Under the pieces are notes generated by a model. It did not search any database and was not told the origin of the DNA. It saw only the letters and a program-made list of their open reading frames with translations. The translations under genes were made by a program, and so were the position numbers. Shown piece after piece: positions 2,710 to 41,162 of a DNA stretch of 48,142 nt (positions within the stretch are counted from its first letter, which is position 1; every line of letters begins with the position of its first letter). Source of the stretch: a virus; the IMG/VR virus record IMGVR_UViG_3300046753_000257, positions 1 to 48,142 of that record. One strand, written 5' to 3'.

Positions 2710-3014
2710 GCAAGTACCCTGTAATGGACAGGAAGCTAACTAACATAGCTACGTTCTCAAGCTTTCGCCGTCAATGCCTAACGGCTAATATGTCTAAGCA
2801 CTGGGTTGACAATGACAACGAACAACCAGTATGTACGGGGTTATACTTCATTAAGCACAAGGACTTCCTAGGTGACATAGACATCGCGGAATATCACATC
2901 AACAGCAAGGGTAAATCCTTCTGGTGTACTGGTGGGAAGCCTACACACTGGGCTGAGATAGAAACCTATGAGTATATGCTTGAAGACGGCACACCATTAT
3001 ACGAAGACCAATGA
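2706..3014 (+). CDS. Hypothetical protein, DUF551-like
   Basis: 102 aa. The second half contains a pattern GKSFWCTGGKPTHWAEIETY resembling the THW-x-x-(L/I) signature of DUF551 proteins, which are common small phage proteins of unknown role. ATGA overlaps join it both to the annealase-like gene before it and to the exonuclease gene after it, so the three are translated as a unit. Function unknown. Confidence 0.55.
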   Translation: MSKYPVMDRKLTNIATFSSFRRQCLTANMSKHWVDNDNEQPVCTGLYFIKHKDFLGDIDIAEYHINSKGKSFWCTGGKPTHWAEIETYEYMLEDGTPLYEDQ

Positions 3015-3793
3015 ATATATCAGATAAATTAATGGAGCGGTACGGCAAGTCTCACTTGTCGTACTCGTCTCTCAAGCAAGCCCTAGGCGACATGGCTCAG
3101 TTCGATCGCTATATGAAGGGTGAAGTCAAATACAAATCAGATGCGCTAGAGTTCGGTACTATGTACGATATGCTGTTGTTCGAACGGGACAAAGCATTCG
3201 AGAAGTACACGGTCATGTCTCCATCCGCTATCGTAACCACGCTATCAGACAAGGCTCAAGCCTCCAAGAAACCAACGCTAACTGCTGAATACAAGGCAAG
3301 GCTCAAGGAAATCAAGGAGGAAGCGGCTGAGGATGGTAAGTCAATCGTATCGCACGATGAATGGCAGACAGCTAACGACATGATCGACAGGCTAGCAACA
3401 TGTGGTTTGCTTGACTCTCATCTCAAGGGTGACTATCAGGTAGGATTCCTTGAAGAGCTACACGGCATACAGGTCAAAGGATTCCTCGACTGCTTAGGCG
3501 ATGGATTCATCAGCGATAGTAAGTCGGCACGTAGCTCGGAGAAGTTTCGGTATGCCATCAAGGACTTCTCATATGACATCCAAGCTTACATCTACACACA
3601 GGTGTTTGGAATAAAAGATTTCTATTGGGTTGTACAAGAGAAGACTTATCCGTACCTTCCTGCCCTAGTTAAATGCTCTGACTCCACCCTGTTTACAGGG
3701 GAGATGAAGTTTCATGATGCTCTCAAGCGTATCACTAACTTCCTTGAGCAGGACTATAATCCACAAAAGGATTACTTAAACTATGAAGTTTAA
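3011..3793 (+). CDS. RecE/exonuclease VIII-like PD-(D/E)XK nuclease
   Basis: 260 aa. The layout matches phage RecE-type exonucleases: an N-terminal LSYSSLKQA segment, FGTMYDMLLFE (about 48-58), an acidic residue near 149, GFLD with D160, then ISDSK giving D169-x-K171. A YDIQAYIYTQ motif (188-197) corresponds to the QxxxY helix. These form the PD-(D/E)XK active site. It should degrade one strand of dsDNA ends to supply 3' overhangs for the annealase-like protein encoded just upstream. It overlaps that cluster by ATGA and, at its end, a 29-codon membrane peptide frame. Confidence 0.75.
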   Translation: MNISDKLMERYGKSHLSYSSLKQALGDMAQFDRYMKGEVKYKSDALEFGTMYDMLLFERDKAFEKYTVMSPSAIVTTLSDKAQASKKPTLTAEYKARLKEIKEEAAEDGKSIVSHDEWQTANDMIDRLATCGLLDSHLKGDYQVGFLEELHGIQVKGFLDCLGDGFISDSKSARSSEKFRYAIKDFSYDIQAYIYTQVFGIKDFYWVVQEKTYPYLPALVKCSDSTLFTGEMKFHDALKRITNFLEQDYNPQKDYLNYEV

Positions 3794-6528: not shown

Positions 6529-7017
6529 GTGAAACGACAGAAAAGCGGAACTCCTAAGCGTAAATCAGCTAAAAAGCGCAATCTAGGTAAGTATAAAAGC
6601 GGACTAGAGAAGACTTGTGCGGACTTATTGTCCGAGCATAAGATCAACTTCACCTATGAGACTCACGAGTACATGCTCGTAGAGAAGTTTAGGTATCCAG
6701 GAACTTACCTGAAGATGACTACTAAGCGGAAAGACTTATCGGATCGTAGTGGTGCGATAGTCCTTCCCATTAAATACACTCCAGACTTCGTAGGACCAAA
6801 CGGAGAATGGATTATCGAAACCAAAGGGTACACTCCTTCGCATCATGACTTTCCGATGCGTTGGAAGCTGTTCCTTAAGCACTTGATAGACTCAGGAGAA
6901 CCAGTCCCAGCTCTGTTCATCTGTAAAAACAAACACCAGATTGAGCAGGCTATAGTGAAACTTAAAGAACTAGGATATGGCAAAAAACGAGTTAACAAAG
7001 GAGCAGCTAGGAGCTAG
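6529..7017 (+). CDS. T7 endonuclease I-like Holliday-junction resolvase
   Basis: 162 aa with a GTG start; no ATG occurs before residue 49 and the domain begins near residue 20. The order of catalytic residues matches T7 gp3: SGLE (E27), YTPDF (D86), IIETKGY (E97 and K99), followed by a Phe/Trp-rich helix MRWKLFLKHL. The enzyme would resolve branched recombination or replication intermediates before packaging. The N-terminus is very basic (KRQKSGTPKRKSAKKR). A TATCTTAG sequence just upstream resembles the TAnnTTTG promoter box with one mismatch, so a weak internal promoter is possible. Confidence 0.8.
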   Translation: MKRQKSGTPKRKSAKKRNLGKYKSGLEKTCADLLSEHKINFTYETHEYMLVEKFRYPGTYLKMTTKRKDLSDRSGAIVLPIKYTPDFVGPNGEWIIETKGYTPSHHDFPMRWKLFLKHLIDSGEPVPALFICKNKHQIEQAIVKLKELGYGKKRVNKGAARS

Positions 7018-8801: not shown

Positions 8802-9223
8802 CGTTTGGTTTTCTCGATTGTTCTTCCCGCAAAGTACGCACCAAAAACCGTAAGCATAAGTATCTCTAAAAGAGACACATAGCTTTCTTTAGGCATGAAG
8901 CTTTCATCAAGTCCATCCCATACCATCATGATCATGAAGAACAGCATAAGAACGATCATGGTTGCTGGGCGAATGATCTTAGCAATCTTTACATCGCTAG
9001 ACATATCAGCCTCCCAGCGTCTAGATACGTTGTTCTGAAACTCAACCTCAGCCTGTACTGCCGCTTTAGCCTCCTCTGGATCTACGCCCTTCTCCTTGTC
9101 TAGCAGGTTCTTTACAATACCAAGACCTCCCTTATCTGGTAAGAGGTCTCCTACGAGGCTTAAAATGCCTGGAGCCTTGGATTTGAGCCAATCCCCTAGC
9201 TTGGTGTCTTTAATCTTCTCCAC
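8798..9223 (-). CDS. Holin-like membrane protein (3TM-holin type)
   Basis: 141 aa with a GTG start at 9223. The N-terminal half is polar with a helix (LGIVKNLLDKEKGVDPEEAK). The segment NNVSRRWEADMSSD followed by IIRP and two hydrophobic spans (ATMIVLMLFFMIMMVW and YVSLLEILMLTVFGAYFAGR) with a basic end matches phage/GTA 3TM-type holins. It would form the lysis lesion in the inner membrane. It overlaps the giant ejected-protein gene by 14 nt upstream and the protease by ATGA downstream. Confidence 0.7.
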   Translation of the reverse strand: MEKIKDTKLGDWLKSKAPGILSLVGDLLPDKGGLGIVKNLLDKEKGVDPEEAKAAVQAEVEFQNNVSRRWEADMSSDVKIAKIIRPATMIVLMLFFMIMMVWDGLDESFMPKESYVSLLEILMLTVFGAYFAGRTIEKTKR

Positions 9224-12200: not shown

Positions 12201-15200
12201 TAATAGGTTTTTCTCAGAGGCATAAGAAAGCGCGGTCATGCCGTCTTTAATAAGGCTGGAAATTCTATTTACAAAATCTTTTTTAGGCCCAGAAAATGGA
12301 TTTTTAAGATCCCCCGTAATCAAGGAATCAAGAACCTTGTTTACGTCATCAATAGTCTTTAGGTTCCACTCATAACTAAATGAAGGCCGACCTGGACCCT
12401 CTATCTGTTCAGCCCCTAATTCCCCTTCATTAACGTCAAATAACTGACTGATTAACCTCTCTCCGCCTGGCACATTAGTAAAGCCCATTCTTGCAGAACT
12501 CTGGTTCATTATAGAGTTGATCAGTTCAACCGCAGTCTCCTCTCTTGTTTCTCCACTCTCAACCTGGGAATTTAATTTGTTTTTGACGTCGAGGGCTATT
12601 TTAGAGGCTACATATGGATTTCCAGCTATTGCTTTATCACTTAAATTATTGAACGTTATGGCGACCTGTCCTCTTTCTCCTGGCTTTAATCCTTTGGATA
12701 TAGCGTCCATAGCGGCCTGTCTTTCCAATACCCTCTTAATAATACCAGCATCTTCTACTGTCAGGTGAGATGTAATTATTCTGTTCCCCTTCAGAGCCTC
12801 TTCGGTCCCTCTAGCTGTAAGTCTTATTTCGTTTTGTTTTTTTATCCCGCTTGGATTTTTCTTCTCTTCCTCGATCCAGGTGCTATCGTAACCCAATTGA
12901 ACACCCCTAACTCCATTCAATTCTTCCGCTGAGCCAACATTCTTTTTACGTCCTTTAGTGAAGTGCCTCATATGACCCTCAGGGGCTTTAAACTTACCTC
13001 TTTGAATCTGAGTAGAGAACTTAACCTCTCCGTCAGCTATAGCGTCTCCGCTTCCTGCTTCGTTAAACCTTACTAACCCACTCATGTTAAACAGGTCTGG
13101 GTTGTCCTCCTTGGAAATCGAACCTCTATTTCCTGCTAGATCTTTAAGCTGTTCTTTTGTAATCCCAGAGTCTATGGCAGCTTGAATGTTTTTCTTAGCA
13201 ATAACAAGCCCCTCAAAATCTAATTCAGTAGAAGATTCACCATCAGGATAGAAGCTTTGCAGGGTTGTATATACGTTTAGACCAGAGTTATACCATAAAT
13301 TACTAACCTCTTTAGAGAGCTTTGAGTACTGGACTCGCATTTCAGTGTCGGCGGCCTGATCCCTCATCCTTGCCGCTCCCTTTAACTCTTTAAAGGTAGG
13401 TATTCTCTTTATCTGTACTTTCTTTCCGTTTTTATCTACCTGAGGTTTAGGCGGCTTTACGATGTGCTTCTTGCCGTCCTTGATAAAGTACATTTCAGTT
13501 GCAATGCCAGGATATTTCTGGTTGGCTGTTATTTTATTGTACCAGTTTCTAAAGTGAAAATAGTCATTAACCTTTATGCTTTGGGGTGTACCGCTTTTAC
13601 CTCTTGAGTTAGTAAACACCCAATCCGATTCTCTTCCTGATTGACGATCAAAGGTGTAGAACACCTCAGTGTCTTTAAGGTACGTGAATTCACGCTTAGA
13701 CCTTGTGGACTTTGATATAGGAGATTCTGACTGAGACTCTCCAGGTGTAAACTGAACCTCCTCGCCTTCAATACCTCTAGAGAGAACCCTAGCGAATCCT
13801 TTTAAGTCAGCCTCACTGTTAATGATGTTTTTACCTATCAGTCTATTAATTATGTCTGCAATCTTTTGCCAAACATTTCTATATGAATCTGGAGACTTTA
13901 TATAGTCCCTAACATAACCACCAATAAGTTCCTCCTCGATATTGGCCTTCTTCTTACTGTCAGTTACAAACGCAAGAAGCGCTTTTATATCGCTGACTGT
14001 AAACTCACCATTTCTAATGTATACGTCCTCAATACTTCTAATTAGTTTTGGCATACCCTCTGCCGCTTTAACCATTCCCTTAACGCCATCAGGGAAGTAA
14101 GCAAACATTCTATCAGAGAGAACACCTCTTAATCTGTAGTTGTTTAGAGCTAGATCAAGAAGTTGATTTAAAAACCTTGACCTGACCTTACTGTCGCTAA
14201 GCATAGACTCCATAGCAAAGTGAAAGAGCACCTCCTCTGTGACTAGATCGGTTACGCTGTCCATATTGAACTCGCCAAAACCCTTAACAGCACTTCTAAC
14301 TTCTGGGTTGGTAACGTCAAGCATATGAATCTGCTTTTTCTTTGAATCGTACCAACCAAAGGTTACGTTATCCTTAGACATGGCCGATCCATCAGCCTCC
14401 CTCATGGCTATATTGAAGGAACCAATATCTCTATGAACCTTGATACTAACCTGAGGAAGCTTATCCCTGAACTTAGCTACAGCCTTGTTGAGTACGTTTG
14501 ACAGGAGACTTCTAAACTCCGTAGGCATGTTAGGGTTAGATAACCCAGCGTCTGGATTCTGCGAATCCACCTCAACAAAGTTGCTCTTTTCTTCAGCGTC
14601 TATTGATATAGTCGGCCTACTAGCTTTTTTAGCGGCTCTTTCCGAAGCCCTGTCCTTAGATAGCTGCTTCTCTAAGCTGTTTCTTTCTTTTAAAAGCGAC
14701 CGATATTCCTGTCTCTGTTCCTCATTCAACGCGGTAGGCCCCCCTATACCACCATCAGGAGCCAAAGCATTCTGAACTTGTGTTAGTATTGCGCTTATTC
14801 TTTTGTTTAAAGAATTAATTTTTAATTCCCCTTGCTTAACCCTATTAGTATAATAGCCCGACTTGTTTGCGGAATCTTCAACGGCCCCATCCAGACCGTC
14901 TTGACTTTCGTCATACTGAGACAACCTTTCACCCTCTGAGTTCTGAGAAGCAGTGGGTTTTGAGTTGTTGTCTACTACCTTTTTGGTGCTTGTGTTTTTA
15001 GCTGGAGCTGGAGCTTCCGAACCGCTGGAATCTTCAGCAGAAACGTCTGGCGTCTCTGGCTCTTTTGGTGCGTTATTGACTATCTCTTCGATCTGAGCCT
15101 CTAATTCAGTGACTCTTTTCTTTCCAAGTGGTGACTTGGATTTTCTTTGCTCCTCTAGCTCTATGGTTAAATCAATTAGGTTGTCACCGTCTTTTTCAGA

Positions 15201-16544
15201 AAGCCTGTTCAGTAAGTCTGAATTGGCGGATCTAGCTTTTCTTCTAGCAATAACAGGCGACCTTTTTAAATCAAGGGTATTAGAAAGCTCTGGGTCGTTC
15301 TTTATCTCTAGGCCCATATCGGCAAGCTGTTCTGGAGTCGCTGTGTCAACCAACCTCTGAGCCATCCTCCCTGAGATCTTCTTGCCTCTTTGCGTGTACT
15401 TAGGGGCAGAAGCCAAGCCTTTAAGTACACTGATAGGAGCGGTAGCCGTACCGCCTATAGATTCCATTACCACATCAGATCCAGTAATATCTTGACCAGC
15501 AGCAGCGCTTCCTGCTATCTCACCTACCCCCCCTCCAACAGCTTCAACGCCGATAGCCGTAGCAACCCCAGCTAGATTACCTACCCTGCCCCTACCTACA
15601 GCTTTTTTCGCAACTCCAACACCTTTACCCGCAAGACCTTGAGTAATGAATTCTATAGCACCTATAGTAAGTCCTCTAGCAGCTCCCTTTTTGACGACCT
15701 CAAACATAGCGTCGTCATCATTCAATATCGTCTTTAAGTTAGTTTCATTATACTCTAGCCCCTTCATTTCAAGCTGCTCCATAACCAACTCGGCAGTAGC
15801 GGATTGAGCCTCAACAATACCCCCTACAATAGAGCTTCCAAGCCTAAACCCGCTATAAGCTCCAGCTAATAGACCCACAGGCATACCTACGACAGTGGGT
15901 GATGTCGTCACAGCACCAGCTACCGCGCCCGCAACTGTAGACCCAACAACTGTGAGTATGTTGTCCGTGGTAGCATAAGCCCCCATGCTCTGACTGAATA
16001 TCTGAGGAATAAGACCGAAGTTCGCTTCCCCTTCTTCGTCCCAAAAATCCATTATAGCTCGTGTGCTATCTATAATTTCAGAGAACAATCCGTCATCATC
16101 TTCTTCCCTCAAAGCCTCTTTTTCGGCCATCAATTCATTGTACCGCTGTAATTCAGGGGTCATTTCAATTGAATTAACGGAATCTATTGACTCCGCAAAG
16201 GCACGAACCTCCTCGTCATCAGCCTCCATGCCAAGAGCGCCTTCATTAACAAGAGAGCTCATCCTTTTGTTTTCTTCCGAAACGTCAATACCCTGAAGGA
16301 AAGAACCAGCTATTTTATCCCACCAGTTATCGTCCTCGCTAAATACAGCATTAGCGTTCTTAAGCAAGGGTGTTTTTGCTTGTTGTTTCTTACCAAAGAA
16401 GTCTGGATTCTTCTCAGCAAGGGTGTTCATGGCAAAGCTGTAATCTTCACCTTGAACTCCTCGTGTCTGAAAGTAATTATCAGCGTCTACTTGATTGAGC
16501 CCAGAAGCTCTATTTATAAAGTAGTTTAGGTCTTTTTCCTCCAT
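9210..16544 (-). CDS. Giant ejected/polyvalent internal virion protein, 2444 aa
   Basis: The largest gene, 15% of the genome. Residues about 188-353 are Gly/Ala-rich and hydrophobic (for example GSTVAGAVAGAVTTSPTVVG), like membrane-inserting parts of ejected proteins such as T7 gp16. A charged, low-complexity linker follows near residues 490-570. Residues about 1880-2330 resemble the large polyvalent protein-associated domain LPD38: TSRNPEFILSNFSRDI and NATFLFFNASVQGTARLGRS. The C-terminus is a basic coiled coil. It is probably ejected with the DNA to form a trans-envelope conduit and to act in the cell. The enzymatic content of the middle part is not recognised. Confidence 0.75.
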   Translation of the reverse strand: MEEKDLNYFINRASGLNQVDADNYFQTRGVQGEDYSFAMNTLAEKNPDFFGKKQQAKTPLLKNANAVFSEDDNWWDKIAGSFLQGIDVSEENKRMSSLVNEGALGMEADDEEVRAFAESIDSVNSIEMTPELQRYNELMAEKEALREEDDDGLFSEIIDSTRAIMDFWDEEGEANFGLIPQIFSQSMGAYATTDNILTVVGSTVAGAVAGAVTTSPTVVGMPVGLLAGAYSGFRLGSSIVGGIVEAQSATAELVMEQLEMKGLEYNETNLKTILNDDDAMFEVVKKGAARGLTIGAIEFITQGLAGKGVGVAKKAVGRGRVGNLAGVATAIGVEAVGGGVGEIAGSAAAGQDITGSDVVMESIGGTATAPISVLKGLASAPKYTQRGKKISGRMAQRLVDTATPEQLADMGLEIKNDPELSNTLDLKRSPVIARRKARSANSDLLNRLSEKDGDNLIDLTIELEEQRKSKSPLGKKRVTELEAQIEEIVNNAPKEPETPDVSAEDSSGSEAPAPAKNTSTKKVVDNNSKPTASQNSEGERLSQYDESQDGLDGAVEDSANKSGYYTNRVKQGELKINSLNKRISAILTQVQNALAPDGGIGGPTALNEEQRQEYRSLLKERNSLEKQLSKDRASERAAKKASRPTISIDAEEKSNFVEVDSQNPDAGLSNPNMPTEFRSLLSNVLNKAVAKFRDKLPQVSIKVHRDIGSFNIAMREADGSAMSKDNVTFGWYDSKKKQIHMLDVTNPEVRSAVKGFGEFNMDSVTDLVTEEVLFHFAMESMLSDSKVRSRFLNQLLDLALNNYRLRGVLSDRMFAYFPDGVKGMVKAAEGMPKLIRSIEDVYIRNGEFTVSDIKALLAFVTDSKKKANIEEELIGGYVRDYIKSPDSYRNVWQKIADIINRLIGKNIINSEADLKGFARVLSRGIEGEEVQFTPGESQSESPISKSTRSKREFTYLKDTEVFYTFDRQSGRESDWVFTNSRGKSGTPQSIKVNDYFHFRNWYNKITANQKYPGIATEMYFIKDGKKHIVKPPKPQVDKNGKKVQIKRIPTFKELKGAARMRDQAADTEMRVQYSKLSKEVSNLWYNSGLNVYTTLQSFYPDGESSTELDFEGLVIAKKNIQAAIDSGITKEQLKDLAGNRGSISKEDNPDLFNMSGLVRFNEAGSGDAIADGEVKFSTQIQRGKFKAPEGHMRHFTKGRKKNVGSAEELNGVRGVQLGYDSTWIEEEKKNPSGIKKQNEIRLTARGTEEALKGNRIITSHLTVEDAGIIKRVLERQAAMDAISKGLKPGERGQVAITFNNLSDKAIAGNPYVASKIALDVKNKLNSQVESGETREETAVELINSIMNQSSARMGFTNVPGGERLISQLFDVNEGELGAEQIEGPGRPSFSYEWNLKTIDDVNKVLDSLITGDLKNPFSGPKKDFVNRISSLIKDGMTALSYASEKNLLDPYLTQKTSGHLIAYRMIPYTVSEGGKVPELNLTTAEIPGDIGFKGALVSKSTEFETPMKFMPDLYPINEIFEGINNISDAKSKSAKPGNIQGPISISYSRASSRNNLSNVGGATWDQRPQSSTDQFTDKWLVRLQDKYRRVFKLQEDVAKKNQGQIKETEDFRMAEERMYGRAANDLEILDNQTTKITEQLKEEGLSVSDVDEYMYALHAKERNAVISERTEGENTEGSGKSDEWADGILNSLSDEKKAKLEKVASTVREIQQNTRDKMVELGLETQETIDAFEEMFSDYVPLQGQARDEDSVEFSPYPSGGAGFSVSGATTKKAKGRKTESVDIVAQVISQNAAVSIKGRTNESMNALYNLVESNPNEDVWTILDKDKDGYKDLDPNIVSVRVNGVQKAIRFKDGSYAQSLRSMNLPQKNLFVKYMGTLNSWLRAAFTSRNPEFILSNFSRDIQSAIFNASAETDIEGGFLNGTGAMRRIFKMVTPSLKALIRDEVGAKSDPLIMRYYNEFKEDGGKTGWAYQKSLEDIASELEIDDSGKTKSQGIIGGVKKGLEFIEGMNDAFENSIRLSAYIAAREGGVSRGKAAQFSKNITVNFNKQGEWGPAMNATFLFFNASVQGTARLGRSLTKLKPAVAPDGSTRNWRQRATNAQKAALGMVIMNGMLTLLNRAASDEDEDEVLFFNKIPDYVKERNMIIMRPDGENYWKIPMPYGYNIFANAGSVAVEVASGDKPALEGLAFMASTMINAFSPVSFGQSENLARMATKSAIPTAFKPFFDAFAFNETYFGSPVMAEQYPFGTPKPNSSMSFRSPEELKQFFSWMNEATGGSENVPGVLDINPDGGWYIMEYFMGGTGKFVDRSIETVRKTISDTTEEPVKLDFNDVPFMRIVYGEPSKYYDMQKFKDREVEVKQLMSELKGNRVDGDPDRYKGVANLNANLKAINKRLRDLRKQKRAARKINNYGERVSKVQELMEKERKLLMMFNKKYDELRGED

Positions 16545-19926: not shown

Positions 19927-22900
19927 TTATTGACCTAAGGGGTGATGACTCTTAGAATCAGTTATGTGAGTGTTTATACAATACAGCTCGTGTTTGTTGT
20001 TAGAGCTGTTGGTTAGTTTGATTTTAGCGTAGTGTCCGCGAATAGGGTCTCCGTTTGAATCGCTTAAGATTATATGGTCCTGACCATCAGCCTGAGGGAC
20101 TATACCAGATACAGTCATTGAGTTCCCGCTTACCGAAAGAATAGTAATTAAGGTGTTGTCTTCTAGATATAATCCAACGCCAATAGGTATGTTTAATCTG
20201 TTAAGTCTAATCGTAGAGGTTAAAACCGTATTTGGGCTCAATGCGCCTACACTTAAAGTTCCTACATACATTTTTTGACTAGTGCTATTGCTAGAAGCAT
20301 CTCTAGGCATAGAAGCGTAGTAGCTACCTTCTCTCTCAGACCAGGAGGTTATCGTGCCAGACGTCTGACCTAAATCTGTTTTAGCTCCAGGATTCATATC
20401 CCATGCATCAGAATCACCTTCATAAGATAAAGCGTTGTATACCTTAACCCTTGATGGTGATATCTTAGAAACCATCTCTACTTCAGATGGGTAGTCGGCA
20501 TCGTAAAAGTTGTTTCTTGTTGCGCTATCGTGCCTCCAGAAAATATCATTACCGCTTGTGTGCTTAGCACTATACAGCATATTATTCTGATTAGAGTACA
20601 CATCGGGCGTAAAGCTGTACTTGCTCTGCCATACACCTCTAGCTACGTCATAACCTACCGTTTGTGGTGTTTCGCCTAATCCAGTAATAAAGTAGGTGCT
20701 GATTCGTGGATCGTATCCGCTTACGTACTTAGCATGACCAGCTTTAAAGAAGCCCTCAAAGAAAGAAGACATATTCTTTTCTGATATCGGCGATAGCTGC
20801 TCACCGCCAAGTCTCATTACAGCTTGTCTAGATTCGTCTACAAAGAACACATCGTTATCCTGAATGAGAACAGCCTCTGGGTGTCCTCCGCAACCATAGT
20901 CTCCTGAAGAGTATCTAGCCTGTCCTAGCACATTAGTTGAGATCGCTACGTTTCCGCTACCCTCAGCGTACTGAATGATATTCTTACCTACAGGAATCAA
21001 AGACAGCTTATTCTCTTGCAGAGCCACTAAGTTGTCGTTGTAATTACCTATATAGTTGATTGCACCAAACTTAGACTCAAGGCTGTCGAAGTTACCTAGT
21101 GAAGGGTTGAACGAAGACAAAGAGAGGTTAGCCACATCCTCTGCGTATGCATCTCCGTAAGTAATACCGTTAAATCGTCTTATCTCTGAGGCCTGCTTAA
21201 AGGGAGCGTGAGCTCTACCCCTACTCCAGATTTTAGATTCAATCCTGTCAGTGATGTTATTAGACTCTAAGAAGAAAGCCTTGTATTTATATAGGTCATA
21301 ACGAGAGCGATACTCCCAAGCTGAAAATCCACTAACCTGAATGGTTTGATCTGAGTCACTATGATGCAAGGCTGTCTTGCACTCAACGGGTCTAAACCAG
21401 GCGTCTCCGTTCGTGAGGGTAATGCTTGCTCCGTGGGGGTTAATAGAAGGGTTTTTTGCTCCGATACTACTTCCCTCACCTATCTCATAATAAACCTTCT
21501 CCGATGTTGTTTTCTTTGGTGTGTATATCTCCACAACCGTTTGCTTACCCCAGTGGTTTATAGAGGTTGAACCATTTAATGAAGAGTTGCCAGCTGATGG
21601 GTCGAACCCACTTACATCGCCCCAGTCATAACCTGCATACCTTATAGCGTTCCCATTGCTGTCAACTTCTCCCCCGTTAATTCTTGAAGATTCAAGAACT
21701 AGAAAAACGCCAGCGTGCTTATCTTCAGTTTCTTCAGATACGTGAATTGGGTCCGCGTTAATATCCACAGGCTCTGTTGGTAAGGAGGAATCTCCATCCG
21801 TGTGTGACATTATAACCACATCCACTACCTCAAACTCGATAGGCGATCCGTCAGAAGCCCTTTCATACATTGTTGTTGAGTCATCGTCCGATCGTCTACT
21901 TATAAGTCTTAGCTTATCACCATTTGTAAAAGAGTAGTCTCTTAGGGCTCCTTTTTCCGTTTTGTAGTCCTCTAGGTTGTTTAAAGAGACATACACACGT
22001 TTATTACCAGTGTCGGTTTTATGCTCGTCGTTGTTATTGTGTGTTATCTGAGTGCAAGCATAAAAGGCGGGACCTGTAGTGTACTGCACATAATCAGAAA
22101 TAGAGTCAGCACCAGAGTAAACTATCTGATATCTATCAGCCCAATCGGGTGGATTGAACCCTCCATCATCTGTTGACGGGAAAGCAATCTCTATAGACGC
22201 TGGCCCAAGCCCTTGAGATGCAGCTGATCTTTCTGGTATTGTATTTACATAGCAAGAACCCAGCTCATTAACAAACCCAGAACGATTAAACTTATCGTAA
22301 TAAACAATACCGAAGCTGTGAGTGCTACCTGACTTAAAAGTAGGTTTAGCAGTCTTTAGAATCGCTGTAGCCACATGATCAAAAACGTAGTTAGCTTCAA
22401 TTCCAGCTTGTAATTGGGTATCGCCAAAGGAAGTTACAAAACAATTAAGCAAAGACTGTATGTTCACGCCTTGAACAAAGTAATCATCATCCGAATTAGT
22501 AGCTTGAGGTCTTGCCGTTGAAAGACCCTCTGGGATCTTTATGCCTTTAACCTGAGGTTCTATAGTTATACTAGCTAAAGAAGAGCTTGAGTTTATAATT
22601 GTTTTATCAAAACCAACAGTAACCTCAACTCTTCCGTCAGACTCTACCTCAAGCCCATTTGGAAGAAGGAGTACAGAGGGGTTATCATCTAGCCCTCCCC
22701 CTGGGGTTGCCTCAAGTTCTTGGTCGATAAAGTATATATACGTTTTAGACTGTAGGGAAATTATTTGATCCAATGGAGATACAAGATCCTTAACCTTAGT
22801 GTCCTGAGACACCGTGAAACTTACAGATACGGTTTGAAGGTCAAATTCCTCATTCACAGATCTTGAGAATGAAACTGGTGAATTAAGGGGTGAGCGAAGC

Positions 22901-24342
22901 TGTCCACTTGCTGAACTTAGCGGCTCTCCCGAATCCACGTCTGGTAAACCTGAAATTGTAACGTCAAACGTAAGTACGGGTTTTTGCTCCTGGTCAGAAT
23001 CCTCTAATTGAATAGTGAAGTCTGTGTCGTACCTAAAGGAGATATTTATTTCGGTTCCTGATGGCACCACTGTGTCTCCTGTAGCTGATCCAGCCTGAAG
23101 AGAGTCAAATGATCCACCAGCAAGCAAGTCAATAGTAATTCCATTTGGAATAGTAGGAGGGAACTGATCTATAACATCATCCTGGTCATTACTAGATATG
23201 AACGTATCAGATTTAGATGTCGCTTCGGAGTACTTGGGAGTTATTGTAACGTTAGTCGGAACGTTATCTCTACCCTCTACGTAATTTGAATAGAACAGCC
23301 TATTGCCCGACAATGCCTGACCTTGGGCAAGAAGAGGAACGTTATCGTACATCTTATCAACAATGGAAGGGTCTACAGTAGCCCCAAGTGTATTGTTGTA
23401 AAACCTATAGACAAATGTTGAGGCGTCGTATATCGTGATATCGGTTCCAAAAAAGTTTCTAGTAATATTTACGCTAGGGTCAAACTCATCAACAACAAAG
23501 AAAGAGGTGTCATTCCCTCTCCTGCAAAGTAACCTAACCTTACTAAGGTCTGGCAATTGAACATCTACCTGCGTATTTACAAGGCATACGTTCTCAGAAA
23601 GCATGGATATAGCGTTACCCGTCTCCATAGACTGCAAGTACATAGACTGAGAAACAGCAAGGGCGGAGTAAGGAGATATCGCAGACTCTTCACCATCCTT
23701 AAATATGTTCTGAGTAGCAAACTGAAAAGCCTCTGTGTTTAGGTTGTTTTGACCAAAAGACGTGTCCGTATCAAAAGAAACTAAAGGAAACTTATTATTG
23801 GCAGCCTTTATTGTTTGAATAGCTTCACCAAAGCTTGAACCTAAGTTGTATTCTCCTGCGATGGCTCTATCTACATTAATCTTTCTTGGAGGTTTTACAT
23901 TATCGGTAAAATAGATAATAGTAGATACCGTTCCGTCCTGCTTAAAATCAGCGTTTATTAAATCAGCCTTTATAAAGCTTTCATTGTTAAAGTCAAGGCC
24001 AGAATGATTTCTGATTACCTCTACGTAGGTGTCGTCAGTTGTGTTGTACTGATATATAGCGTTATCAAAAGCGCCAGTATCTCTAGCCACAAAGAAGTAT
24101 ATAAAACCTCTATCTGAGTCAGAAACGCTACCTATGACCTTGCCCTTAGATCCATCAGGATTAACAAATGGAGAAGAGGTAGTAGCTGGTAAGGTGCCTT
24201 TAACATTTTTAACCACACCTTCGCTACCACTCCCGTCCTCAGAGATAGAAACATTGAGGGCGTCCGTCATGGCACCCTCTTTCAGCAAACGCTCGTCCTC
24301 ATCACTGACGAGGAAGCGTGGTATCATTTTATCAATCGCCAT
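19927..24342 (-). CDS. Tail nozzle-like protein (gp12-like), 1471 aa
   Basis: The N-terminus (MIPRFLVSDEDERLLKEGAM, then TDALNVSISEDGSGSEGVV) follows the pattern of podovirus tail tubular B/nozzle or stopper proteins, where a short leader is followed by a beta-propeller-like body with repeated Tyr/Asp motifs. At 1471 aa it is nearly twice T7 gp12, with an inserted beta-rich part around residues 350-600. It would form the distal tail tube below the adaptor proteins encoded directly upstream. Its ATG lies next to the stop of the 272-aa adaptor gene. Confidence 0.7.
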   Translation of the reverse strand: MAIDKMIPRFLVSDEDERLLKEGAMTDALNVSISEDGSGSEGVVKNVKGTLPATTSSPFVNPDGSKGKVIGSVSDSDRGFIYFFVARDTGAFDNAIYQYNTTDDTYVEVIRNHSGLDFNNESFIKADLINADFKQDGTVSTIIYFTDNVKPPRKINVDRAIAGEYNLGSSFGEAIQTIKAANNKFPLVSFDTDTSFGQNNLNTEAFQFATQNIFKDGEESAISPYSALAVSQSMYLQSMETGNAISMLSENVCLVNTQVDVQLPDLSKVRLLCRRGNDTSFFVVDEFDPSVNITRNFFGTDITIYDASTFVYRFYNNTLGATVDPSIVDKMYDNVPLLAQGQALSGNRLFYSNYVEGRDNVPTNVTITPKYSEATSKSDTFISSNDQDDVIDQFPPTIPNGITIDLLAGGSFDSLQAGSATGDTVVPSGTEINISFRYDTDFTIQLEDSDQEQKPVLTFDVTISGLPDVDSGEPLSSASGQLRSPLNSPVSFSRSVNEEFDLQTVSVSFTVSQDTKVKDLVSPLDQIISLQSKTYIYFIDQELEATPGGGLDDNPSVLLLPNGLEVESDGRVEVTVGFDKTIINSSSSLASITIEPQVKGIKIPEGLSTARPQATNSDDDYFVQGVNIQSLLNCFVTSFGDTQLQAGIEANYVFDHVATAILKTAKPTFKSGSTHSFGIVYYDKFNRSGFVNELGSCYVNTIPERSAASQGLGPASIEIAFPSTDDGGFNPPDWADRYQIVYSGADSISDYVQYTTGPAFYACTQITHNNNDEHKTDTGNKRVYVSLNNLEDYKTEKGALRDYSFTNGDKLRLISRRSDDDSTTMYERASDGSPIEFEVVDVVIMSHTDGDSSLPTEPVDINADPIHVSEETEDKHAGVFLVLESSRINGGEVDSNGNAIRYAGYDWGDVSGFDPSAGNSSLNGSTSINHWGKQTVVEIYTPKKTTSEKVYYEIGEGSSIGAKNPSINPHGASITLTNGDAWFRPVECKTALHHSDSDQTIQVSGFSAWEYRSRYDLYKYKAFFLESNNITDRIESKIWSRGRAHAPFKQASEIRRFNGITYGDAYAEDVANLSLSSFNPSLGNFDSLESKFGAINYIGNYNDNLVALQENKLSLIPVGKNIIQYAEGSGNVAISTNVLGQARYSSGDYGCGGHPEAVLIQDNDVFFVDESRQAVMRLGGEQLSPISEKNMSSFFEGFFKAGHAKYVSGYDPRISTYFITGLGETPQTVGYDVARGVWQSKYSFTPDVYSNQNNMLYSAKHTSGNDIFWRHDSATRNNFYDADYPSEVEMVSKISPSRVKVYNALSYEGDSDAWDMNPGAKTDLGQTSGTITSWSEREGSYYASMPRDASSNSTSQKMYVGTLSVGALSPNTVLTSTIRLNRLNIPIGVGLYLEDNTLITILSVSGNSMTVSGIVPQADGQDHIILSDSNGDPIRGHYAKIKLTNSSNNKHELYCINTHITDSKSHHPLGQ

Positions 24343-35032: not shown

Positions 35033-35302
35033 TTATACCGCAGTAGCCTCAGGGAATGCCTGAGCGACAGCTGCGTCTACGATCACATCCAAGTCTGTCT
35101 CTCCAGCGGCGTTGTTGTACTGAACGTTTAAGTTGTGTACGAACACCCCTCCGTTCTCTACAGCCTGCATAGAGATGTATACGTTCTCTTCGTGTACGCT
35201 TACCTGCATTACCGATAGCGTTGGATTCAGAAGAGTGAAGTGATTTTCGAACTCTTTCTCACCTGCGATAGACCAGGATTTAGATTGAAATGTAAATGCC
35301 AT
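35033..35302 (-). CDS. Small beta-rich hypothetical protein, 89 aa
   Basis: Reads MAFTFQSKSWSIAGEKEFEN, then alternating strands (VSVHEENVYISMQAVENGGV). It is a single-gene transcription unit with its own -7 box and a very strong terminator, and its codon use and GC look better adapted than those of neighbouring fibres. This suggests a product made in large amounts, perhaps a capsid decoration or fibre subunit; inference only. Confidence 0.55.
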   Translation of the reverse strand: MAFTFQSKSWSIAGEKEFENHFTLLNPTLSVMQVSVHEENVYISMQAVENGGVFVHNLNVQYNNAAGETDLDVIVDAAVAQAFPEATAV

Positions 35303-35328: not shown

Positions 35329-35982
35329 TTAAATAAATCTATTTTTAAGGGCGTTGTAGTTTTGCGTGATTTCTGAGGCAGAGAGAGCGCGGTTATAGAC
35401 TTGAAAAACACTTAAATCCATCGGATTCGCGCCCTTCCGACCAGTTGAAATTTTTAAAGTATTGTCTGTGGTGTTAAGAGGATTACTTGTGTCACTTCCT
35501 AATAAAGTTCCATTATTAAAAACTGACGTAGTGTTAGAGGACTCATCGTGGGTTACGGTTAAGTAAGACCATTGACCATATGAATAGTTAACTAAAACAT
35601 CTCGGTACCACCCATTGAATTGAATTTGAGACGAACTTTTAGTCTCTAAGGCAAAGTGAGCAGCGGTGGTGGTTACTCCATACTCAAATATACTCCTTTG
35701 GCCGCCATACGAACCAAGATTTGCAAAAAGGCAAAAGGTTTTAGATTTGTTACCCCCTAACCCCAAAGCAGAGCTTGTTTCTACATAATCATTACTCCCA
35801 TCAAATACAATACTGCCACCATTCGCCGAATCAAATGTAGGTCCATTAGTCAATGTCCCATCATTGCCGCCAACTAAGTCATACCAAGTAGTCCCAGATC
35901 CTGGATAGCTATTACCATTAGCTGCATCCACGTAGAACACCAACCCATCCGTCACTATGCTTTTCCCAAATGAATAACTCAT
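35329..35982 (-). CDS. LamG/concanavalin A-like lectin protein 3, 217 aa
   Basis: Last of three tandem paralogues. The shared start VTDGLVFYVDAANGNSYPGS is followed by TWYDLVGGNDGTLTNGP, FDSANGGSIVFDGSNDYVET, a variable middle, and a shared end FQVYNRALSASEITQNYNAL. This is the laminin-G-like jelly-roll fold, usually binding glycans. It lacks a signal peptide and is probably a virion-borne receptor-binding or decoration module. ATGA overlap with the paralogue upstream. Confidence 0.75.
   Translation of the reverse strand: MSYSFGKSIVTDGLVFYVDAANGNSYPGSGTTWYDLVGGNDGTLTNGPTFDSANGGSIVFDGSNDYVETSSALGLGGNKSKTFCLFANLGSYGGQRSIFEYGVTTTAAHFALETKSSSQIQFNGWYRDVLVNYSYGQWSYLTVTHDESSNTTSVFNNGTLLGSDTSNPLNTTDNTLKISTGRKGANPMDLSVFQVYNRALSASEITQNYNALKNRFI
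35816..35841. repeat. 26-nt direct repeat, copy 1 (LamG-like gene 3)
   Basis: Identical to 36478-36503. It encodes the TFDSANGG segment of the LamG-like paralogues. A third, diverged copy lies near 37148-37175. The identity could support recombination between the genes. Confidence 0.75.
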
Positions 35983-36644
35983 ATGAATCTGTTTTTTAGA
36001 GCGTTGTAGTTTTGTGAGATTTCAGCTGCTGATAGGGCGCGGTTGTAAAAACTTACATTAGATATTGAATTTGGGTAAGATTGACCAGGGTTCCATACTC
36101 CATTATAATAATAAGCACCAATAGGAAGAATTGAGGGAATTGATAATGAAGTGTCTGTTTTTGTAGCGTCGCTTACTCCATCAACATAAAGTGTTGCAAC
36201 TCCATTAGCAATAGAGGCACATACATTTGTCCAGTTTGTAGTAGCATCAATAACCCCTTGTTGCCATCCTCCGCCCCATCCTATCGTCCATTTTCCATTA
36301 TACATCATTAAATAAAGCCTATCTCCATATCTAGACCCAAAAAATATTACGTTTTGTGTAGTATTTGGTAATTTAACCCAGCAGTTAATAGATAAATTAT
36401 GGGATTGGTTACCTGTGGGAAATAAGCCACTAACATCTATAGGTACAGAATCATCAGTCCCATCAAAGGAAAAACTACCACCATTCGCCGAATCAAATGT
36501 AGGCCCGTTAGTTAATGTACCATTACTACTACCTGCTAAATCAGTCCACGTAGTCCCGCTACCAGGATACGAGTTATCATTACCTGCATCCACGTAAAAA
36601 ACTAACCCGTCAGTTACTACCCCTATGTTGCTCTTTACGCTCAT
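35979..36644 (-). CDS. LamG/concanavalin A-like lectin protein 2, 221 aa
   Basis: Second of the three paralogues. It shares VVTDGLVFYVDAGNDNSYPG, the TLTNGPTFDSANGGSFSFDG block and the end VSFYNRALSAAEISQNYNAL. The middle (about residues 70-180) differs from the others and holds NVIFFGSRYGDRLYLMMYNG and GVATLYVDGVSD, the strands that carry ligand loops in LamG folds. It overlaps both neighbours by ATGA. Confidence 0.75.
   Translation of the reverse strand: MSVKSNIGVVTDGLVFYVDAGNDNSYPGSGTTWTDLAGSSNGTLTNGPTFDSANGGSFSFDGTDDSVPIDVSGLFPTGNQSHNLSINCWVKLPNTTQNVIFFGSRYGDRLYLMMYNGKWTIGWGGGWQQGVIDATTNWTNVCASIANGVATLYVDGVSDATKTDTSLSIPSILPIGAYYYNGVWNPGQSYPNSISNVSFYNRALSAAEISQNYNALKNRFI
36478..36503. repeat. 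26-nt direct repeat, copy 2 (LamG-like gene 2)
   Basis: Identical to 35816-35841, lying at the same position in the paralogous gene. Confidence 0.75.
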
Positions 36645-37321
36645 ACGAAACGGTTCTTTAAAGCATTATAGTTTTGAGTGACTTCCGTGGAGGTGAGTGC
36701 TCTATTATATATTTGGCCAATAGCAAAATTTCCAGACATACTTCTACCAACACTATGTGGGTCTCTACCTATAACTAAGTTACCCAAAGTTGATGGAGAG
36801 TGACTATTAGAATTTGTCGCAGATGTTATACCGCTTTCTTTACATAAATATGCTGTAAGTCCTGTGCTGCTCACTGAAATTACAGCCATAAACCATTCAC
36901 CATTTGGGGTAGTTAAACCACTTGACCAATTCCAGGTGGCGCTAGAACCATTCCAATGGTATCCAATTTGGTTGTTGTTAGACCTATATCCTAAACCAGT
37001 AACTCCTCCTCCTCCTCCTCTAGAAAATAAGATTCCAGCCCAGGTATTTTGTTGTCCATCTCTTTTAATCCAAGCTATAAAAGTAGCTTCGGTTAATGAT
37101 ATGGATTGATTAAATTGTGTGTAATCATCAACTCCATCAAACACAACGCTACCCGCATTGGCTGAATCATACGTTGGCCCATTAGTTAACGTCCCATTAT
37201 TTGCCGAAACCAAATTACTCCAAGTAGTTCCGCTACCAGGATAGCTATTCCCATTCCCTGCGTCTACATAGAATACTAACCCATCGGTTACGATAGGTGC
37301 GTTATTTGCAAACCCACCCAT
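36641..37321 (-). CDS. LamG/concanavalin A-like lectin protein 1, 226 aa
   Basis: First of the three paralogues in transcription order. It has the common start (IVTDGLVFYVDAGNGNSYPG) and end (IYNRALTSTEVTQNYNALKN), with its own middle: AWIKRDGQQNTWAGILFSRG and a Gly-rich loop RGGGGGVTG. It directly follows the 84-aa gene with no gap. Presumed glycan-binding virion module; whether it is a separate subunit or is attached to the large fibre is unknown. Confidence 0.75.
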   Translation of the reverse strand: MGGFANNAPIVTDGLVFYVDAGNGNSYPGSGTTWSNLVSANNGTLTNGPTYDSANAGSVVFDGVDDYTQFNQSISLTEATFIAWIKRDGQQNTWAGILFSRGGGGGVTGLGYRSNNNQIGYHWNGSSATWNWSSGLTTPNGEWFMAVISVSSTGLTAYLCKESGITSATNSNSHSPSTLGNLVIGRDPHSVGRSMSGNFAIGQIYNRALTSTEVTQNYNALKNRFV

Positions 37322-37576
37322 TTAGATCTCTGCGTTAGGATCGGTCCATTCTTCTCCAGCTAAGAGAGCCAATATCTCTTCGTGAGTGTACTCTTGCGAT
37401 TTTGTAGTCAAAGCTGTTACCGAAGAAGGCATATCACCTTCATATTTGACAAAGCTCTGAGTCTCTGCTAAGTTCTTTCTCAGCGTTTCTGCTGATGTCT
37501 CCATGACTTCTGAGAAGTCGATCGTGTCTACCTCTGAGAGGTCAAAGACTACGTAGTGTCTGTTATCGAAATGCAT
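37322..37576 (-). CDS. Small acidic protein after the large fibre, 84 aa
   Basis: Reads MHFDNRHYVVFDLSEVDTID, then a helical part and VKYEGDMPSSVTALTTKSQE, ending EEILALLAGEEWTDPNAEI. It is acidic and lies 4 nt after the stop of the 1193-aa fibre, the usual site for a fibre assembly chaperone or cap. No family confirmed. Confidence 0.55.
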   Translation of the reverse strand: MHFDNRHYVVFDLSEVDTIDFSEVMETSAETLRKNLAETQSFVKYEGDMPSSVTALTTKSQEYTHEEILALLAGEEWTDPNAEI

Positions 37577-37580
37577 TATA

Positions 37581-40500
37581 TTAAGTTAAAGTGGTGCTCT
37601 TCCAACCACCGTTGATGTACACGTAAAGATAGCAGGTGTTAGATACAATCCCTAACTGCATAGTGCCTTCAGGTGCTGTAGCTGTAGGTGCTGATGTGAG
37701 GATCTGAGGCAAAGCCATAGTTCCGTCAGAATTACTCTGGAACATAGGGAGGCCAGAAACATCATTAACACCAAACAGCGTGCCTGTAGTTGTGGTGTCT
37801 ACTTGGAATAAGTCGTGCGTACCGTCGTGTATTGTAAAGGTGTCCGCAGTGCCTGTTGGGTCGAGTTCTATATCGAGGTTAAAGCCGTTTGTGTCAATGG
37901 TTCTGTCTGCGTCAAGCGTCTGATCAGCTGTACCTATTCCTCCTGATCCTCCTCCACCACCACCAGAAGGCGTGGCGAAAGCAAGATCACCATTAGCGTC
38001 TACTTCGAGCACCTGACCAAGCGTTCCAGTGGCCGTAGGTAGGGCGTACCCCGTGCCTGTTAAGTCACCTACCTCGATACCGCTAACCTTAATTACACCG
38101 CTGGCTTTTATATTACCTACAACATCTAGTCTTTCCGTGGCACTTCCAAAAGTGTTACTATAAGCATTACCAACTTTAAGACCGTCGGAGGTCCAGTGAC
38201 CGTAGACACGCGGGGTTGAAGCGCCTGGGACGCTTGAGGTAAACCATATGTTATTTGTATAGTTTCCAGTATTTATCTGAAGACCTTGAATAGTTCCAGA
38301 AGGGTCCCAACCAATAGAGCCCCAGTAGTTGTTGTTGTAATTAGTTTGGTTACCACGAGGTCTAAAAACAAGTTGAGACGCATAATTACTTGTTCCACCA
38401 TCCGCAAACTCAAACACACTGTTGAAACCGAGGGAAGGGTTGTTTACTTCTGTCCCGATCAGCATGTTTCTGTTCTTTACAGAAACTTGACCGTTAGTTC
38501 CATCTAGCTTGAGAACGTTCTTATGGGTGTAGGTGTGAAAGTCATAACCTTGAGTACTAGAGCTATTTCCTGTCCATTCTAACCAGTCATAAACAAATGC
38601 TGTGTGCTGGAATGTTTGCAGGTTTTCTGCTGTTCTAAGGTGCATTCCTTGTCCTAGTATCCCACCACTTAAGTTAACAACATTACCACTTATAGAAACA
38701 CCTAAATCACTACCTCCAGATAAATCTAATATTTTATCCCCATTGGTTTCAGCAAATCTATACTGATTCGCTTTGAAAGTAGGACCATAATTACTATGGT
38801 CTCCTATCTCAACAATTAACTTATCAGCACTTCCATGCCACCCCCCATCCAAGATCAATTTAGGATTATGTCCTGCCGCAGCATCACCATTAATTGTTAA
38901 GGTTCCAGCATTACCAGTGTCATCACCTCTAACCCCAACCACAAGACTGTTGTGGATTTTTACTTTCTTGTTATCAAACTCCCCGTATATAAGCGGGGTA
39001 GTAGAGTTGGAGTTCTCTATGTAGAGCTTGTTGGACTCTGTGGTAAGCGCAGACCCAGATGAGTACCCAATAAGAACATTACTAGCTCCAGTCGTCATGG
39101 AACTTCCAGAACTTTCACCGACAGAAACGTTATAAGAACCCGAACCTTTTCCAGCTCCTCCCCCTACAACAGTATTATTGCTTCCGTTATTACCCCCTGA
39201 ATTATAGCCTATGTAAGTACCTCCAGCATTGCTATCTCCTGCGCTTGAACCAACAGCAACACCATAACCACCCGTCTTTGCGTTAGAACCAATGGCGGTT
39301 CCGTAAGTGTTACTGGAATAGGCGTTATTCCCTACCACAGTCATCCAACTACCGTTAGTTTTTCCTCTAGCTTGCGACCCAATAGCTGTTACTCCCTGGG
39401 CGCCAGACGTCATGTTAAGCCCAGCTCTCCACCCAACAAAGGTTTGGCCATGGTCGCTATTCGACCCTGTTGTGGCATGACCCGCTAGATAACCTACAGC
39501 CACAACTTTATTCCCCGTGGATAAAGATAAACCAGCATGATAGCCAAGCGTAGTGTTTTGACTCCCTGTAGTTAGAGCCGTGCTAGCTTGATACCCAACA
39601 GCTGTATTCTCTGTACCTGTAGTTAAAGCTGTTAATGCTTGGTAGCCTACAGCCACTGTGTTGGAGAATGTGGATGAGCCGCCTGTCCCCTTGCCAGATT
39701 CAAAACCTACTAAAACGTTTGCGCCGCCGTTATTTTGCTGACCAGCAGTAGACCCAATAGCTACGTTGTCGCTATAAGTTCTAATACTATTGTATACCCC
39801 ACCAGAATTTACACCAACAGCCACGTTGTTCGAGCCTACTATAGTAGACATTGAGTTGCTACCAATGGCTACGTTGTTGTCTCCATTTGATACCCTCATA
39901 GCTCTATTCCCAAGGGCTATATGATGTCCGTCTTGAAACTGAGTTTGATAAAGGCTTTCTGTGCCCATTGCGATAGAGTGAACACCCCCATTGGCCGCCC
40001 CCATAGCGTTATAGCCAATTGCGATTCCAGATTGGACAATCCAGGCCGCTCCCCTACCCGCATTTCTTCCTAAAAAAATATTATCAGAATAAGCGGAACT
40101 AAGCTTACCAGAACCCTTTCCAATAGCTATGTTGTAAGTGCCTCCCGCCGAAGCTCCTTCACCAATAGCCACAGAGCTAGTCCCAAGAACATATTGACCA
40201 GTTCCATCGCCAATAGCAACGTTTTTAGTTCCAGTCGTTATTGTGTTCGTTCCAGCGTTTATTAGAATATTACCCCCAGTGGCAGAATCTTTCAATTGAA
40301 GTTGTCCAACAACATCCAAGGATTCAGCAGGTGTCGTAGTTCCGATACCTACGTTGCCTGCGGTGTAGTAGATGTCGTTAGTTGAGGTTGTCCAGGGTGA
40401 TCCAGAAAAGTCAACGAAAGAAACAGCCCCGTTTCCGTCAGTTTGTAATAGCTGACCAGCAGAGCCATCTGCTGATGGCAAAGAATAGGATACGCTAGAT

Positions 40501-41162
40501 GTGTCACCCACCTGTATAGCTCCATTAAACCTTGCGTTACCGTTTACGTATAGGTTGGTAGAGGTTGGTATTTGACCAGACTCATTTACAGATATAGTAG
40601 CGTCATTGGCAAAAAGACCAGGTATAGAGCCTCCTGTTGTTGAAGAGAATATAGGGCTAACAAATTGATATCCAGCTGATGGACTACCCCCAATAGCTGC
40701 TACGACATAAGTGCCAGGAGCATCTTCAAGAAGTTTAATCTTGTCATCTACTGGATCCCAAACCAAAGCTCTCTGAGAAACAGGGCTTACATTTCCAACA
40801 GTCGGTATAACCTGAGTTGTTAGATTAGATGTATCAAAGTCTACAGTTACGTTATCTATATCGTTGATATCGTCAATTACAGTTCCGTCAATACCAGGCT
40901 CTCCCTGAATACCTTGATCACCCTGTGGGCCCTCTTCACCCTGTTCACCTTGATCACCTTGAATGCCCTGCTCACCTTGAATACCCTGTTCACCCTGTTC
41001 ACCCTGTGGGCCAATCAGAGAGTCTAAGTAGTCTTGTACAGTTCCAGTATTTCCTTCGTCTAACCATACCTGATAAGCGTTATCACCTTGCTCACCTCGA
41101 ACGCCTTTAATACCCTGGACACCCTGAGGACCCTTAGATACTGTAATTTTTATTTTCGCCAT
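37581..41162 (-). CDS. Long tail fibre with collagen-like and YadA-like repeats, 1193 aa
   Basis: Residues 11-27 and 51-93 are G-x-y collagen-like repeats (GPQGEQGEQGIQGEQGIQGD), separated by an AYQVWLDEGNTGTVQDYLDS linker. Residues about 315-740 hold many 14-residue-type repeats of the kind NVAIGxxA/SVAIGEGASAGG, the left-handed beta-roll of trimeric autotransporter (YadA/Hep_Hag) heads. A further beta part, a poly-Gly hinge (SGGGGGGSGG) and a C-terminal domain (LQLGIV-like GTMQLGIVSNTCYLYVYING) follow. A homotrimeric adhesin for host attachment is likely. It carries no signal peptide, as expected for a virion protein. Confidence 0.8.
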   Translation of the reverse strand: MAKIKITVSKGPQGVQGIKGVRGEQGDNAYQVWLDEGNTGTVQDYLDSLIGPQGEQGEQGIQGEQGIQGDQGEQGEEGPQGDQGIQGEPGIDGTVIDDINDIDNVTVDFDTSNLTTQVIPTVGNVSPVSQRALVWDPVDDKIKLLEDAPGTYVVAAIGGSPSAGYQFVSPIFSSTTGGSIPGLFANDATISVNESGQIPTSTNLYVNGNARFNGAIQVGDTSSVSYSLPSADGSAGQLLQTDGNGAVSFVDFSGSPWTTSTNDIYYTAGNVGIGTTTPAESLDVVGQLQLKDSATGGNILINAGTNTITTGTKNVAIGDGTGQYVLGTSSVAIGEGASAGGTYNIAIGKGSGKLSSAYSDNIFLGRNAGRGAAWIVQSGIAIGYNAMGAANGGVHSIAMGTESLYQTQFQDGHHIALGNRAMRVSNGDNNVAIGSNSMSTIVGSNNVAVGVNSGGVYNSIRTYSDNVAIGSTAGQQNNGGANVLVGFESGKGTGGSSTFSNTVAVGYQALTALTTGTENTAVGYQASTALTTGSQNTTLGYHAGLSLSTGNKVVAVGYLAGHATTGSNSDHGQTFVGWRAGLNMTSGAQGVTAIGSQARGKTNGSWMTVVGNNAYSSNTYGTAIGSNAKTGGYGVAVGSSAGDSNAGGTYIGYNSGGNNGSNNTVVGGGAGKGSGSYNVSVGESSGSSMTTGASNVLIGYSSGSALTTESNKLYIENSNSTTPLIYGEFDNKKVKIHNSLVVGVRGDDTGNAGTLTINGDAAAGHNPKLILDGGWHGSADKLIVEIGDHSNYGPTFKANQYRFAETNGDKILDLSGGSDLGVSISGNVVNLSGGILGQGMHLRTAENLQTFQHTAFVYDWLEWTGNSSSTQGYDFHTYTHKNVLKLDGTNGQVSVKNRNMLIGTEVNNPSLGFNSVFEFADGGTSNYASQLVFRPRGNQTNYNNNYWGSIGWDPSGTIQGLQINTGNYTNNIWFTSSVPGASTPRVYGHWTSDGLKVGNAYSNTFGSATERLDVVGNIKASGVIKVSGIEVGDLTGTGYALPTATGTLGQVLEVDANGDLAFATPSGGGGGGSGGIGTADQTLDADRTIDTNGFNLDIELDPTGTADTFTIHDGTHDLFQVDTTTTGTLFGVNDVSGLPMFQSNSDGTMALPQILTSAPTATAPEGTMQLGIVSNTCYLYVYINGGWKSTTLT

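Follow-up and report, generated by a model that had tools for sequence, protein, structure and literature searches.

A tandem array of three LamG genes

The window analysed here is an entire virus record of 48,142 bases, and between positions 35329 and 37321 of its minus strand lie three tandem genes for LamG-like lectins. In order of transcription these are lamC (36641..37321), lamB (35979..36644) and lamA (35329..35982), which occupy slots 1, 2 and 3, begin with leaders of the classes MGGFANNAP, MSVK and MSY, respectively, and are joined by 4-nt ATGA overlaps. All three products belong to the Laminin_G_3 family (PF13385) of concanavalin A-like lectins, with E values of 7e-13 to 3e-16 (5e-14 for lamC) and scores of 49-60 bits against a curated cut-off of 27.6. 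A first-pass annotation, made from the letters alone, had proposed three such genes here that share an N-terminal block, a TLTNGP block and the C-terminal end, and the open reading frames, alignment and DNA repeat families all bear this out. Pairwise amino acid identity is 40-45% and lies mainly in the N-terminal ~60 residues, with the motifs VTDGLVFYVDA..NSYPGSGTTW and GTLTNGPT(F/Y)DSAN, and in the C-terminus, with the motif YNRAL..E..QNYNALKNRF. The DNA repeat families match these ends exactly, covering 176 nt at 72-77% and 65 nt at 66-80%.

The divergent part coincides almost entirely with the Pfam LamG_3 match (residues ~61-210), which lies at 36680..37138 in lamC (residues 62-214), 36015..36464 in lamB (residues 61-210) and 35368..35802 in lamA (residues 61-205), all on the minus strand. 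Further parts of the locus are the leader and N1 block of lamC (37226..37321, minus strand), which link the array to the neighbouring gene g37322, and two conserved junctions on the same strand. The lamC/lamB junction (36552..36706) comprises the C-terminal block of lamC, the ATGA overlap and the leader and N1 block of lamB, and the lamB/lamA junction occupies 35890..36044; both are supported by a diversity profile and by the points at which blocks shared between arrays stop.

The shared ends do not reflect a recent duplication, because dS is ~1 or more in the shared blocks of the three window copies and synonymous sites are therefore near or beyond saturation. On these grounds we discarded a recent tandem duplication, or gene conversion within the window, as an explanation. 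Moreover, paralogues within one phage are no more alike than paralogues from different phages and so give no sign of exchange inside a single genome. An exact 26-nt repeat that had been pointed out in lamA and lamB is indeed present (35816-35841 and 36478-36503), but it is not evidence of recombination, since the longest run of identical codons is not significant given the constraint on the protein (permutation p=0.07).

When the structure of lamB was predicted, as the first-pass annotation had suggested, the model was a jelly-roll beta-sandwich of moderate confidence (pLDDT 73.5, pTM 0.74), in which the invariant QNYNALKNRF segment forms a C-terminal helix and the leader is unstructured. In the PDB it most resembles lectin-like beta-sandwich domains (TM 0.55-0.69, normalised by query length). 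Neighbours in sequence or fold are sugar- or receptor-binding domains of sialidases, an arabinanase, pentraxins and clostridial neurotoxins, together with phage LamG proteins, and they indicate the fold class only. Homologues in the phages S-PM2 and immuto are annotated as virion or structural proteins, and the window's LamG products are probably located in the virion.

Genomic setting of the array

The terminase and portal of the window phage are nearest to those of Flavobacterium elemo phages, Cellulophaga phages and one metagenomic podovirus; Calle and Gundel, which are related isolates, have been described as podoviral (PMC8776804). Because the record encodes a portal, a GroES co-chaperonin and a crAss-type muzzle C-terminal domain, and because a search of it for a tail sheath gene found none, this marine phage is very probably short-tailed. 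Fibre-like genes fill a ~12-kb block that separates the portal from the next virion gene, g28227, and in the relative MW202828 other structural genes follow directly after the portal, with no fibre-like block. Upstream of the array is a collagen-like fibre or spike gene of 1193 aa (37581..41162, minus strand; PF01391; phrog_4636, tail spike), which is likely to belong to the same host-recognition island.

Two small genes on the minus strand flank the array. The upstream partner, g37322 (37322..37576, 84 aa), is 75-89% identical to the window's copy in related arrays, has homologues in S-SKS1 and immuto phages, and often adjoins or sits near LamG genes in other phages. It matches no family in Pfam or PHROG, and a confident model shows a small alpha/beta protein (pLDDT 87.5) that resembled no fold in the PDB. 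The downstream gene, g35033 (35033..35302, 89 aa), closes many arrays and is 69-94% identical in relatives. The wider g37322 family consists of ~80-aa proteins with invariant P50 and W77 from very different phages (L159-L204, L023), and its members are often found beside LamG genes, either upstream or downstream of them.

Arrays in related phages

To compare copy number and middle segments among related phages, as had been proposed, we collected relatives by searching viral contigs for LamG, g37322 and terminase. This comparison yielded 18 lineages, counting the window, in which g37322 is followed by the LamG genes and then usually by g35033; the related arrays are all metagenomic contigs, and these ~18 lineages form a limited set whose members are partly related to each other. 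Complete arrays hold two or three LamG genes, and no array is present in six of the seven relatives that have a terminase at 85-90% and a complete region from the portal to g28227. Copy number thus ranges from 0 to 3 and the arrays are mosaic, rather than showing the constant copy number and lack of recombination signal that had been named as arguing against a recombining array. In relatives whose g37322 is 75-89% identical, the LamG proteins are mostly 36-45% identical to those of the window.

Slot 1 begins with MGGFANNAP in all 18 arrays. The MSVK and MSY leaders belong to slots 2 and 3, where their order varies, and each leader class is used at most once in a complete array. The start MGGFANNAPIVTD is present exactly once per contig in 24 contigs.

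Other layouts were also seen. L140, L155 and L158 lack the array downstream of g37322; just upstream of this gene they encode another LamG-like protein, whose N-terminal leader resembles DKV..W..LSKISDV. Long arrays of at least eight LamG genes, with two g37322 homologues in between, are found in L023 and L033, and L050, a close relative of the window, has an extra LamG-like open reading frame upstream of g37322 (12351-13308).

Gene ends and LamG domains vary independently

Across the arrays, the first ~100 nt and the last ~50 nt of each LamG gene are conserved and go with one of the three leader classes. Between phages, the DNA of slot 1 is 97% identical in the leader and 88% in the N1 block (88-97% across leader and N1), and identical codons are used at 77-91% of shared residues among slot-1 genes, as compared to 46% between slots. 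N1 DNA identity is 0.82 within and 0.69 between leader classes (permutation p=0.0002), whereas domain identity is 0.199 within and 0.193 between them (permutation p=0.11); the arrays are metagenomic, few and partly related, and the tests ignore this kinship, so that both p-values serve as guides. Likewise, mean identity between domains is ~20%, with 0.202 for the same slot and 0.197 for different slots, and among the seven domain pairs that are most alike (the six best plus WIN_3/L133_1), five have different leaders. There is no detectable link between leader class and domain.

The divergence of the middle segment had been attributed to the loops in which LamG ligands bind. The divergence is real, but it is not confined to loops: entropy in the LamG domain is 2.77 bits in strands and 2.76 bits in loops, and we therefore rejected loop-only hypervariability in favour of replacement of the entire domain.

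Mosaic arrays and their breakpoints

We compared 15 arrays for shared blocks, defined as DNA of at least 93% identity. Every such block that ends inside a LamG gene ends within its first 103 or last 51 nt, and none of the 15 arrays has a block end in mid-gene. Breaks there are not expected under homologous exchange, because different domains share no homology in that part. The junctions themselves, where the 3′ end of one gene meets the 5′ end of the following gene, reach 93-97% identity in comparisons of several arrays.

Some of these blocks join phages with different backbones. For example, L148 and L141, whose portals are 97% and 67% identical to that of the window (over the parts present), have in common 1004 nt at 97.6%, a stretch that takes in g37322 and gene 1 and reaches 59 nt into gene 2. 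L148 and L151, also with different backbones, have the same block of g37322 and gene 1 as well as gene 3 at 97.3%; the gene-2 domain is the only part of the array that differs. The slot-1 gene common to L010, L141, L148 and L151 was seen only in those lineages, and the closest portal relatives of the window (L010 and L148) have LamG domains unrelated to its own.

Domains also recur in other slots and in other types of phage. The window's lamB and gene 1 of L132, a slot-1 gene, are 90.8% identical in DNA from nt 31 to the stop codon while their leaders differ, and a domain ~79% identical to that of lamA occupies slot 1 of L133. The lamB domain is found again in L209 at 91% DNA identity, under other ends (YSPNVV... 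and ...LKGRFGL) and on a contig that also encodes a contractile sheath. Similarly, gene 3 of L010 matches L265 at 91% and gene 1 of L131 matches L254 at 75%, L265 and L254 both being sheath contigs. A bacterial source for the domains was rejected, since a profile scan of bacterial genomes revealed no relatives of them and lamB alone gave only matches of 25-30%.

Mosaic genes with breakpoints in conserved flanks are the pattern of a recombinationally exchanged adhesin module, and the arrays show this pattern. Exchange of domains between arrays, between slots and between types of phage is well supported by these genomic comparisons.

Discussion

We consider it likely that this short-tailed phage, which is of the Flavobacterium elemo/Cellulophaga type, carries in its host-recognition island an array with three slots for LamG receptor lectins, each encoded by a gene of its own and each with an exchangeable domain. 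In this respect the recombination half of the earlier proposal, recombination-driven receptor switching, is well supported by the relatives, while the receptor half is inferred from the fold, the neighbourhood of tail and fibre genes and the variability. A variable binding part carried on a constant attachment part is the layout of a receptor-binding protein, and the LamG domains most likely bind host surface glycans.

The array might operate as follows. Each slot would keep its own short leader and N-terminal block, with a C-terminal helix common to all, and these constant ends probably attach the lectin to the virion or to a partner. The LamG domain between them would be a cartridge that selects the ligand. 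When two phages infect the same cell, homologous recombination within the conserved ends could then replace a whole domain and sometimes move it to another slot or another type of phage, as is seen in the mosaics of relatives. Such a swap would change or widen attachment, and probably alter which bacteria are bound. The protein encoded by g37322, which travels with the array, may possibly be its chaperone or adaptor. On the plus strand, an exonuclease VIII-like (PDDEXK) protein (3011..3793; phrog_412, E 3.5e-38; PF12684) could supply the homologous recombination, and an endonuclease I-like protein (6529..7017; PF05367; phrog_945) is a possible junction resolvase. A broader version, which we put forward tentatively, is that of a dedicated combinatorial attachment system with three leader-addressed slots, filled by cartridges from a pool that circulates among marine short-tailed and contractile-tailed phages, in which the ~130-nt junctions would be conserved partly as exchange sites.

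The alternative that survives best concerns function rather than exchange. The lectins could be virion components with a role other than reception, for example in binding algal polysaccharide, particles or mucus and so keeping the phage near its hosts. LamG domains bind many ligands, the folds that we recovered resemble glycan-binding domains generally, and several lectins beside a large separate fibre or spike gene could well be accessory. However, the strong diversification between otherwise close phages fits variation among bacterial hosts at least equally, and we regard a non-receptor role as rather unlikely.

Ordinary divergence, with three old paralogues whose ends are constrained by the fold or by virion attachment, a lectin domain that changes fast and recombination of no particular importance, is improbable. 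It would be in keeping with the near saturation of synonymous sites in the ends of the window copies, with the similar ends of many phage LamG proteins outside this group and with the lack of significance of the 26-nt repeat. Three findings speak against it, since they need exchange: the abrupt transitions at gene ends from 97% identity to no match, the presence of nearly the same domain behind different leaders and in a phage with a sheath, and the lost linkage between domain and leader. Provided that the mosaics are not assembly errors, they already contradict this account.

The proviso deserves attention, as the related arrays are all metagenomic and contigs could have been misjoined at the ~130-nt junctions, which at 93-97% identity between phages might produce false mosaics. 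Yet such chimeras are very improbable as a general explanation, even if single mosaics may have arisen in this way, because the longest exact repeat between paralogues within one array is only 9-27 nt and because each of three arrays was recovered in three contigs that differ by 0-1 mismatch, although these contigs are possibly not independent samples. In addition, the shared blocks stop short of full identity (97-98%) and stem from metagenomes with different numbers, and lamB-like domains differ by dispersed substitutions too. Finally, a dedicated diversification machine, either a diversity-generating retroelement or a site-specific invertase, resembles the array in outline in that a variable adhesin lies between constant parts, but can be dismissed as scarcely credible, since variation is by whole domains and not by adenine point changes or inversions, and since neither a reverse transcriptase (PF00078) nor a tyrosine or serine recombinase (PF00589, PF00239) has a match in the record and the inverted repeats of the array region are only weak.

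An array of exchangeable lectins has several partial counterparts among known systems. Among the Alteromonas phages A5, V22 and P24 (PMC10579305), receptor-binding genes likewise cross between podo-, myo- and siphophages of marine bacteria, and an adjacent small chaperone gene travels along, much as g37322 does; those phages share a whole 10-gene module, however, whereas here single LamG domains move between fixed ends in three slots. The BACON repeats of crAss-like phages (PMC6949934) are also tandem putative carbohydrate-binding domains near tail genes in Bacteroidota-type phages, with horizontal transfer of single domains in two lineages. The crAss muzzle C-terminal domain is common to crAss-like phages and the window phage, but BACON repeats lie inside one protein, whereas the array has a different fold, LamG, with one domain per gene under its own leader. 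In the gp38 adhesins of T-even phages, hypervariable segments lie between conserved glycine-rich motifs. Like the ends of the LamG genes, these motifs around host-specificity segments are possible exchange points (PMC12529663), although gp38 has an unrelated fold and varies in short loops of one gene rather than in a ~150-residue domain of several genes. Metaviromic islands (PMC3909814) similarly contain host-recognition genes, including lectin-like ones, that differ between close marine phages; that work reports under-recruitment, and not this array, its leaders or its breakpoints. The cyanophages S-PM2 and S-SKS1 and the Flavobacterium phage immuto, which belong to different phage groups, encode homologous LamG proteins (34-36% identity), two of them in tandem in immuto, and their records do not describe leaders or domain exchange.

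Cross-morphotype host-recognition modules, transfer of single BACON domains, gp38 segments and metaviromic islands were already known, whereas a multi-gene, leader-addressed array with whole-domain exchange at its junctions was not found in the open-licence papers searched. Phages are known to exchange receptor-binding parts, but mostly as entire modules or as the tips of fibres. In these arrays one can read directly what is exchanged, where it begins and ends and which slots there are, namely ~150 residues between fixed ends in three slots with distinct leaders, and the same domain appears in short-tailed and contractile-tailed phages. The arrays thereby make it possible to study in nature how attachment specificity is recombined, how many lectins one virion carries at a time, and whether gene junctions are retained for recombination. 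They also provide a catalogue of ~35 distinct LamG domains that is usable for glycan arrays.

Other large proteins of the record

Matches to the 1193-aa collagen-like fibre (37581-41162) form a patchwork, and this gene is mosaic among relatives, which match either the last ~100-170 residues of the protein, at up to 98%, or isolated pieces from its middle, and not the whole. The crAss muzzle C-terminal domain (PF25729) is part of a 1471-aa protein (19927-24342), which suggests a crAss-like short tail in a phage record of 48 kb. A 2444-aa protein with an LPD38 polyvalent-protein domain (9210-16544) is probably an internal virion protein, and a 377-aa protein (7668-8801) carries an M43-type metallopeptidase domain together with a weak dockerin match.
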